DNA from: Methanothermococcus thermolithotrophicus DSM 2095
GTDB lineage: Archaea > AGJL01 > Methanococci > Methanococcales > Methanococcaceae
NCBI RefSeq assembly: GCF_946463545.1
Contig: NZ_OX296583.1
Coordinates: 558,001 to 622,000, forward strand
Reading direction: 5' to 3'
DNA: 64,000 bases
This document shows positions 17,413-19,706 of this stretch, piece by piece. A program made the position numbers and the translations under genes. The notes below the pieces were generated by a model. The model was given only the letters and a program-made list of their open reading frames with translations, searched no databases and had not been told where the DNA came from. Position 1 is the first letter of the stretch. Each line of letters begins with the position of its first letter.

Positions 17413-18261
17413 ATGGATCCCTTTGGAAAGTATAAAACTGTGGTATCTGCAAGAGCTGCAGATAAAACCATACTGAAAAAATGTCAAGATGGAGGTATTG
17501 TTTCAGCCGCATATATATACGGTTTGGAAAATGGCCTCTTGGATGGTGTTATTGTTGCAGATAAAGATGACAAATTACAAACAACTCCTAAAGTTGCAAC
17601 AACAGTTGATGAAGTTTTAGAGGCTGCTGGAACCAAATACACAGTCTGTCCAACTATAAGTGTGATAAAGAGTGCAGTTAGAGAGTATGGATGTGAAAAA
17701 CTTGGAGTTGTTGGAACTCCATGCCAAATAATTGCAACTAGAAAATTAATGAAATATCCTATAGGATTTAGGCACGTTCCTGATAAACTGGCATTAATTG
17801 TGGGAATATTCTGTATGGAAAACTTCCCATACAATGGTATGAAAACCATCATCGAGGAACACTGTGGAATAAAGATGGAAGATGTTGCTAAAACTGATAT
17901 TGGAAAAGGTAAATTCTGGGTATATTCCAAATGGGGAGATGTTAAATCCATCAAATTAAAAGAAACCCACCCATACGAACAACAATCCTGCCACGTATGT
18001 ATGGATTACACAGCTGAATTGGCTGATATTTCCACAGGTTCGGTGGGAAGCCCAGATGGCTGGAGTACAGTATTCATAAGAACTGCTCAAGGAGAAGAGT
18101 TCTTTAACAAAATGGTTGAAGCCGGAGCATTGGAAGTTAAACCAATAGAAGAAGTTAAACCTGGTTTAGGATTAGTTGAGAAACTATCACTAACTAAAAA
18201 AGAGAAAAACGCAAAAGAAATCGAACATAGAAAAGAAATTGGATTACCAGTTCCTTATTAG
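17413..18261 (+). CDS. frcB: F420-reducing hydrogenase beta subunit
   Basis: FAD and [4Fe-4S] subunit that binds and reduces coenzyme F420. 282 residues in the FrhB/FdhB family: [16 protein letters not shown] near the N terminus, [12 protein letters not shown] mid-protein, [15 protein letters not shown] near residue 210. The frame is open from 17344, but GAGGTGG before the ATG at 17413 sets the start. Odd feature: the last six codons plus the stop region are repeated 150 bp downstream (18240-18260 and 18390-18410, 21 identical bases). The first copy ends in TAG formed at the junction with inserted DNA, the second would end in TAA. Confidence 0.95.
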
Positions 18262-18410
18262 AATCTTTAATTACTCACGGCTTTACCGTGATAATGCAAA
18301 AAGTTTCGTGAGTTCGACGAAACTTCGTTGGATGATTAAGCTTTCAGTTTTGGGATCCAACACTTTTTATAAAAGGGTTGGAAGGAGAATGGATTACCAG
18401 TTCCTTATTA
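18240..18410 (+). repeat. Insertion flanked by a 21-bp duplication of the frcB 3' end
   Basis: Two identical 21-base copies (18240-18260, 18390-18410) encoding the C terminus GLPVPY flank 129 bp of hairpin-family DNA. The insert contains CACGG-ctttac-CGTG-like and GTTTCG-tgagttcga-CGAAAC pairings, then a 32-base hairpin beginning TGGGATCCAACAC (18351-18382) that is nearly identical to 51823-51853 on the other strand. The likely history is an insertion at the stop codon with duplication of the target; copy two, with TAA, would be the original end. Confidence 0.7.
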
Positions 18411-18494
18411 ACTATCTAAAAGGCACTACCAAGCATTTTCTTTCTATTTTTTTATTTATTCTATTTTATTCGGTGGAACTGATATTGATACTCT

Positions 18495-18674
18495 TTAACA
18501 TACCCTTGGGACAGGATCCCACATGAAACTTTTAAAAAAAGTTGAACGAAAACGTTTAGGTTTTCGTTGCATTGAAAGTTTTCAACTTTCAAAGCTTGAA
18601 ATTGCTTTGCAATTTCATGCTCGAAACAAAGTTTCGATTTCATCAAAATTAACATACCCTTGGGATAGGGTCCC
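18495..18674 (-). repeat. Insertion flanked by a duplication of the hypE 3' end
   Basis: The last codons of hypE on the minus strand (DPIPRVC plus stop, about 24 bp from 18649) recur 154 bp downstream at 18495-18518, encoding DPVPRVC plus stop with two substitutions. Between them lie four hairpins: GAAAAC-gtttag-GTTTTC, GAAAGTT-ttc-AACTTTC (18574-18590), GAAATTGC-ttt-GCAATTTC (18598-18616) and CGAAAC-aaa-GTTTCG (18622-18636). Same architecture and size as the neighbouring frcB duplication, facing the opposite gene. Confidence 0.7.
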
Positions 18675-19653
18675 CTATCGGCGTATCAATTATTCTTTTT
18701 CCTACGATGGTTTCCATTAAAACCCCATTGTATTCTGAGGTAACCTCGCCAATTATTTGAGCATTTTTTCCAAGAGGGTGACTTCTTAAAATTTCTAGAG
18801 CTCTTTCTGCATCATCCTTTTTAACTGCCATTACTACCTTACCTTCATTTGCAACTGTTAGGGGATCTATTCCAAGAGCATCGGCTATTGACTGCACTTC
18901 ATCACTTATTGGTATTTTATCTTCATATATGGTTATTCCCAAACCGCTTTTTTCTGCCATCTCATTTAAGGAATCTGCCAAACCTCCCCTTGTAGGGTCC
19001 TTCATAGCATGAACTTCTATCCCCTCATCTAAAACCTTATGAATCAATTCATTCAAAGGTGCAACATCGGATTTTAAATCAGTCTCAAAATCAAATCCTT
19101 CCCTCGTAAGTAAAATCGCCATTCCATGTTCTCCAATATTTCCAGAAACTATTATGGTATCTCCTTCTTTCATTCCGCAGTCTCTTATCGCCTTTCCAGT
19201 ATCCACAATCCCAATTCCTGCAGATGAGATTATAATATCATCTACATTTGAAACTTTTGTATCCCCGGTTATTACTGAAACATTTGCTTCTTTACAAGCT
19301 TCATTTATGGATTTCATGATTCTATCAAGTTTTTCTATATCAAAACCTTCTGGAAGTATCAAGGACAAGGAAATAGCAAGGGGTTTTGCCCCCATAACCG
19401 AAAGGTCGTTCACCGTACCACAGACAGATAATCTTCCAATATCGCCACCTGGGAAAAATATTGGCTTAACTGTATGACCGTCAACTGTAAAAACAATTTC
19501 TTTATCCCCTATAGGTATTGTCGATGCGTCATCTAGATCCTTTAATCCTATTCCTCCATTTACAGAGGTATTCTCCAAATTACCTAAAATTGTATTTTTA
19601 ATTAGGTCTTGCATAACCTTTCCGCCAGCACCATGCATTCTAGTAATTCTCAT
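18649..19653 (-). CDS. hypE: Hydrogenase maturation protein HypE
   Basis: Makes the cyanide ligand of the [NiFe] centre: dehydrates the thiocarbamate placed on its C-terminal cysteine by HypF. 334 residues with the PurM/ThiL-type fold (HGAGGK near residue 6, FTVDGHTVKP, ITGDTKV, DPTRGGLADSLNEMAE) and the diagnostic C terminus DPIPRVC ending in the catalytic Cys. The ORF extends to 19689, but GGAGATGG and comparison with the short family N terminus favour the ATG at 19653. Sits beside the hydrogenase operons it serves, convergent with frcB; its 3' end is duplicated downstream. Confidence 0.94.
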   Translation of the reverse strand: MRITRMHGAGGKVMQDLIKNTILGNLENTSVNGGIGLKDLDDASTIPIGDKEIVFTVDGHTVKPIFFPGGDIGRLSVCGTVNDLSVMGAKPLAISLSLILPEGFDIEKLDRIMKSINEACKEANVSVITGDTKVSNVDDIIISSAGIGIVDTGKAIRDCGMKEGDTIIVSGNIGEHGMAILLTREGFDFETDLKSDVAPLNELIHKVLDEGIEVHAMKDPTRGGLADSLNEMAEKSGLGITIYEDKIPISDEVQSIADALGIDPLTVANEGKVVMAVKKDDAERALEILRSHPLGKNAQIIGEVTSEYNGVLMETIVGKRIIDTPIGDPIPRVC

Positions 19654-19706
19654 AAAACCATCTCCAAATGTTTTAAAGCCATATGTCATATTATTCGATT
19701 ATAATT

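Follow-up and report, generated by a model that had tools for sequence, protein, structure and literature searches.

Duplicated 3′ ends of hypE, frcB and other genes around palindromic inserts in Methanothermococcus thermolithotrophicus suggest element insertion with regeneration of the gene terminus

Why should the last codons of a gene, together with its stop codon, be found a second time a short distance downstream, and why should the neighbouring gene that faces it show the same arrangement? This question was raised by a 64,000-nucleotide stretch (the window) of the Methanothermococcus thermolithotrophicus DSM 2095 genome (G000; relatives also carry G numbers). In this window, the ORF of hypE, with its AIRS and AIRS_C domains, occupies 18649..19689 on the minus strand, and the 3′ end in use (the proximal copy, GDPIPRVC-stop) lies at 18649..18674. 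A repeat search of the window paired this end (TTAACATACCCTTGGGATAGGGTCCC, 18649-18674) with TTAACATACCCTTGGGACAGGATCCC at 18495-18520, and minus-strand reading of this distal, stranded copy gave DPVPRVC-stop, as the initial annotation had proposed. The two copies are spaced by 154 bp and are identical at 24 of 26 positions (92%); one of the two differences is an Ile/Val change and the other is synonymous. On the plus strand, frcB (17416..18261), an ORF with FrhB_FdhB domains for the coenzyme F420 hydrogenase beta subunit, ends in KEIGLPVPY-stop (18232..18261), and the repeat search also found a stranded copy of that end, TGGATTACCAGTTCCTTATTAA, at 18389..18411 of the same strand. The frcB repeat pair (18232-18260 and 18382-18410) has a spacing of 150 bp and an exact core of 21 nt, TGGATTACCAGTTCCTTATTA. 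The hypE and frcB pairs face each other with their stops 387 bp apart, so that the earlier picture of two similarly spaced duplications facing each other in one gap of about 390 bp was accurate.

The DNA between the copies was then delimited by genome search and folding. Within the hypE pair lies a 128-bp palindromic element of five consecutive hairpins (18521..18648, minus strand), of which the left end, TTTTGATGAAATCG, abuts the hypE stop and the right end is AAAAGTTTCATG. The frcB pair encloses a second, different palindromic insert (18262..18388, plus strand). Both inserts folded well above shuffled sequences (z of -6.7 for hypE and -5.8 for frcB; a third value obtained was -5.4), which supports the claim that both duplications flank hairpins, and the presence of different inserts at different genes upholds the view that two independent events took place. 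The inserts had no match in Rfam at the gathering score, nor near it; in strong hairpin potential combined with no known RNA family, and in dispersed copies with defined ends, they conform to the MJRE-like class of palindromic elements. When the whole G000 genome (1.7 Mb, one contig) was searched, a 96% identical copy of the hypE insert, 127 bp long and with matching ends, was found at G000:C1:1215277-1215403. Because the same 127 bp occur at this second locus (L002), the hypE insert is a dispersed mobile element with precise ends. The L002 copy lies 18 bp past the stop of an S-layer gene and is accompanied by no duplication; comparison with orthologs showed that the end of the S-layer gene itself is normal, and the idea that the flank of the L002 element is a gene-end remnant was accordingly rejected.

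The right unit of the frcB insert, GGGATCCAACACTTTTTATAAAAGGGTTGGAAGGAGA, is also dispersed, with 17 genome matches to window positions 18321-18410 (self included), and the dispersed unit that ends this insert runs GGATCCAAC...GTTGGAAGGAG. Units of the GGATCC type terminate at the ends of frcB, an aroB'-like gene and a dapF-like gene. Within the insert at the end of the aroB'-like gene (L003 1487-1647; G000:C1:745066-745226), the frcB end and its downstream DNA are carried as a passenger; this fragment is flanked by two GGATCC-type hairpin units, which indicates that a pair of hairpins can carry a gene end along between them. An frcB paralogue (G000:C1:275061-275903), compared with window positions 17416-18258, encodes a 100% identical protein and shows the same end duplication around different inserts, with zero differences in the core at both loci. 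Gene conversion between the two frcB copies is likely, and such conversion can also reset the clock; the suggestion that two differences at hypE against none at frcB point to different ages was not supported.

To determine how widespread this form is within the genome, nucleotide and protein scans were run over a sampled 464 kb of G000. About 10 gene 3′ ends were found to recur 40-260 bp downstream with hairpins between the copies, among them those of frcB, its identical paralogue, hypE, rps15-like, dapF-like and aroB'-like genes, and others. At a protein score of at least 30, 12 of 415 gene ends matched their own downstream DNA, compared with 1.0 when downstream regions were swapped, and at a score of at least 28 the figures were 14 of 389 and 0.3, respectively; as the scans covered samples of the genomes, and the G000 stretches were partly picked around element matches, these rates are not an unbiased genome average. 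A scan for non-coding duplications around hairpins showed that such repeats lying entirely outside genes are almost absent. Across events, the duplication measures 21 to about 63-78 bp and the listed inserts 37-258 bp, and the duplicated part mostly stops at or just past the stop codon, extending further out in some cases, such as G006 (109510) and hypE of G028. At one locus (241271; L041, G000:C1:240988-241330), a single gene end occurs three times in series with hairpins between; the G006 ortholog of this gene has a 63-bp end duplication too. The sampled DNA also contains large CRISPR arrays in L039 (G000:C1:87471 onward) and L055 (G000:C1:1420226-1421608); their repeat, of 37 bp, is GTCTGAAAGACTCATCCATTAAAACAAGGATGGAAAC.

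The same structure was also found in relatives. Among 36 genomes of the order, it occurs with different inserts at hypE in G023, G028 and G032, and at frcB in G003, G006 (twice) and G028, so that genomes of the Methanotorris and Methanocaldococcus types carry the form, again at these two genes; we take G028 to be M. jannaschii, and the names Methanotorris and FS406-22 are presumed here from kinship. Within hypE, species differ in where the stranded copy starts (-26, -42 and about -60). G029 and G024 have an empty hypE site, and the sequence that follows the stranded hypE copies of G023 and G028 matches the native downstream DNA of G029. Because this empty-site DNA follows the stranded copy, it is that copy which keeps its native surroundings in G023 and G028; by analogy, the stranded copy is probably also the native one in the window's hypE. 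In a gene of 216 residues, five Methanocaldococcus-type genomes share one insertion, at an identical codon, which five others (G024, G026, G030, G022 and G035) lack. In Methanocaldococcus sp. SG1 (G026), a duplication of the same form is short, at 6 bp, and G006 has a nearly identical pair (62/63). A mirrored 5′ form was observed in G029, where a hairpin insert is flanked by two copies of a 46-bp stretch that spans a start codon, and the coding differences are synonymous only. Recurrence does not extend to every target, as the rps15-like duplication was confined to G000 among 30 genomes. With these further cases in the genome and its relatives, the prospect that a scan for repeats including a stop codon would yield none beyond the first two is refuted, and a defined process, as had been argued from those two, is likely. 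In a jannaschii stretch (L200, 5588-5668) compared with G029, hairpin arrays seem to grow by units entering earlier hairpins, accompanied by duplications of 3-4 bp (AGTT, GTT).

If the copies simply aged after duplication, as was assumed when the number of differences was taken as a measure of age, the stranded copy should lose its coding character. The copies differ by 0 to about 27%. In 17 pairs found at the nucleotide level, 53 synonymous and 8 amino-acid codon differences were counted, compared with 36 amino-acid changes (range 24-46, 500 simulations) expected for a neutral stranded copy. Nine pairs found at the protein level showed 16 amino-acid changes versus 34 expected (23-44); detection at this level favours coding-conserved pairs, a bias that was controlled by including the detection filter in the simulation, though not wholly removed. 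In the 216-residue gene, the stranded copy is essentially coding in all five carriers, and in M. jannaschii the copies have 13 synonymous differences and no others. Amino-acid changes equal or exceed synonymous ones in two pairs (G000 241271 and G028 1446305), and in L070 and L100 the stranded copies are visibly decayed. Because the differences are mostly synonymous and the stranded copy still reads as coding sequence, copy divergence is not a simple clock, and the difference count cannot be read as age.

Comparison of G027 with G033 revealed one difference in 329 nt upstream and two in roughly 60 nt between the copies; the two copies differ at 7 and at least 7 positions, in 72 nt each. Changes common to both copies, together with swapped codons, point to exchange between copies. 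Introgression of a single long foreign tract was rejected for this pair of genomes, given that the DNA between and around the copies is little diverged. Generally fast-evolving gene ends were also rejected, as tail and body gave the same value (0.237 each) in 141 jannaschii/FS406-type orthologs. A synonymous excess of the end over the body was clear in 2 of about 6 jannaschii/FS406-type duplication genes, and not in the others. In a long gene compared between SG1 (L158, near 9419) and G030 (L197), each of the last six codons carries a synonymous change and the preceding 130 nt are identical. In the insert-free gene end of L279 and L280 (G026 and G030), four synonymous changes fall within the last 80 nt, against a single further difference over about 670 nt; this cluster is perhaps the trace of a lost insertion or of a small conversion.

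Taken together, these data make it highly probable that a palindromic element was inserted and that the gene end was regenerated. In the sequence of steps that we propose, a dispersed MJRE-like palindromic element would settle at the very end of hypE, cutting off the native last ~26 bp of the gene and leaving them behind the element, and the hypE body ahead of it would be joined to a further copy of that terminus, which runs as far as the stop codon. Regeneration of the terminus would make insertion at gene ends tolerable. HypE needs its C-terminal cysteine to function, and this need would account for the survival of only those insertions that preserve the end. The extra terminus may have been supplied by a sister or diverged allele, through recombination or template switching at the hairpin, which would give copies that differ by 0 to about 27%; to this origin from allelic recombination we give somewhat less than an even chance. 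Exact copies would tend to be lost by recombination, and the stranded copy could be kept from decay, until the structure is fixed, if the copies later exchange sequence with each other or with intact alleles. As a whole, a mobile MJRE-like palindrome at the hypE end, with the terminus regenerated and recombination keeping both copies coding, is rather likely and is the best overall explanation.

Ordinary transposition, in which insertion at the stop codon produces a long and variable target-site duplication of 20-80 bp, would account for a precise element flanked by duplications, for the 6-bp duplication in SG1 and for pairs that are identical or nearly so (the frcB core, 21/21, and the G006 pair, 62/63). 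However, duplication does not accompany every insertion, as the L002 copy of the hypE insert has none; duplication length is not constant; duplications around hairpins in non-coding DNA are almost absent; and synonymous divergence reaches 27% in stranded copies that have not decayed. A simple target-site duplication followed by decay was therefore rejected as the whole story on the grounds of L002 and the synonymous bias, and we regard long-duplication transposition in general as unlikely.

Equally, the stranded and restored ends recall site-specific integration of the att type, for which the elements would carry a diverged end of the target gene and the small inserts would be remnants. A regenerated target with a displaced fragment is the signature of an island (PMC4383910), and both a restored and a displaced end were found here; moreover, the long gene with six recoded last codons in SG1 is followed by DNA unrelated to that of G030. 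Against this, the same hairpin families occur at many unrelated genes rather than one target per element, inserts of 37-260 bp are too short for an integrase gene, and the start of the stranded hypE copy shifts among species, all of which make integration of this kind quite improbable. Tandem duplication on one chromosome, by slippage or template switching at a hairpin with subsequent drift, would fit the three successive gene ends at locus 241271 and the second hairpin that follows the stranded copy of the frcB paralogue. It leaves unexplained the mostly synonymous divergence and the lack of a second element behind most stranded copies, and we likewise consider it doubtful. A further reading, that elements move between species as gene-specific cassettes comprising the palindrome and a synonymously recoded target terminus, seems a long shot; if true, the cassette would restore the gene on insertion and resist excision because the ends are no longer identical, and such cassettes would be a naturally occurring parallel to a recoded rescue design.

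With insertion and regeneration of the terminus as the favoured explanation, the inserts may be compared with known systems. Suyama, Lathe and Bork are said to have described, in 2005, the MJRE of M. jannaschii as hairpin-rich, dispersed elements of ~100 bp that are mostly extragenic and in some cases intragenic. The present inserts are similarly hairpin-rich, dispersed and about 100 bp long in the same archaeal order, which makes the likeness one of description. To our knowledge, regenerated or duplicated gene termini were not described for MJRE, and they are the distinguishing feature of the present inserts. REP and REPIN sequences, too, are short palindromes that move, their mobilisation probably occurring in trans, and we know of no gene-end regeneration for them. 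PMC2229807 cites the palindromic MJRE elements of Methanocaldococcus jannaschii, and the same paper describes YPAL/RU-2 of Yersinia, a small palindrome whose insertion duplicates 3-26 bp of the target. YPAL/RU-2 thus resembles the present case in combining a small palindrome with a flanking duplication; its duplication is of the target site, whereas the one seen here goes with gene ends, can be as long as about 63-78 bp and shows synonymous divergence. In tRNA and tmRNA genomic islands (Islander), the split target is regenerated and a fragment displaced (PMC4383910). A regenerated target with a displaced fragment at the far side is common to both, but those islands encode an integrase, are of kilobase size and target tRNA genes, whereas the inserts here are non-coding palindromes of 37-260 bp at many protein genes. 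In the open literature, to which our search was confined, no description of a palindromic insert combined with a regenerated gene end was found.

These findings mean that palindromic mobile elements can settle in the ends of essential genes harmlessly, and that a regenerated end together with a stranded one is a readable record of insertion. There are cases in which a seemingly non-functional fragment of 20-75 nt keeps its coding sequence across species, and such coding-conserved stranded fragments make local recombination and gene conversion measurable in Methanococcales. Caution is also warranted, as the 3′ ends of genes here can differ in history from the gene body. For methanogenic archaea, the combined data suggest a continual rewriting of gene ends by mobile palindromes and recombination that leaves the proteins unharmed.
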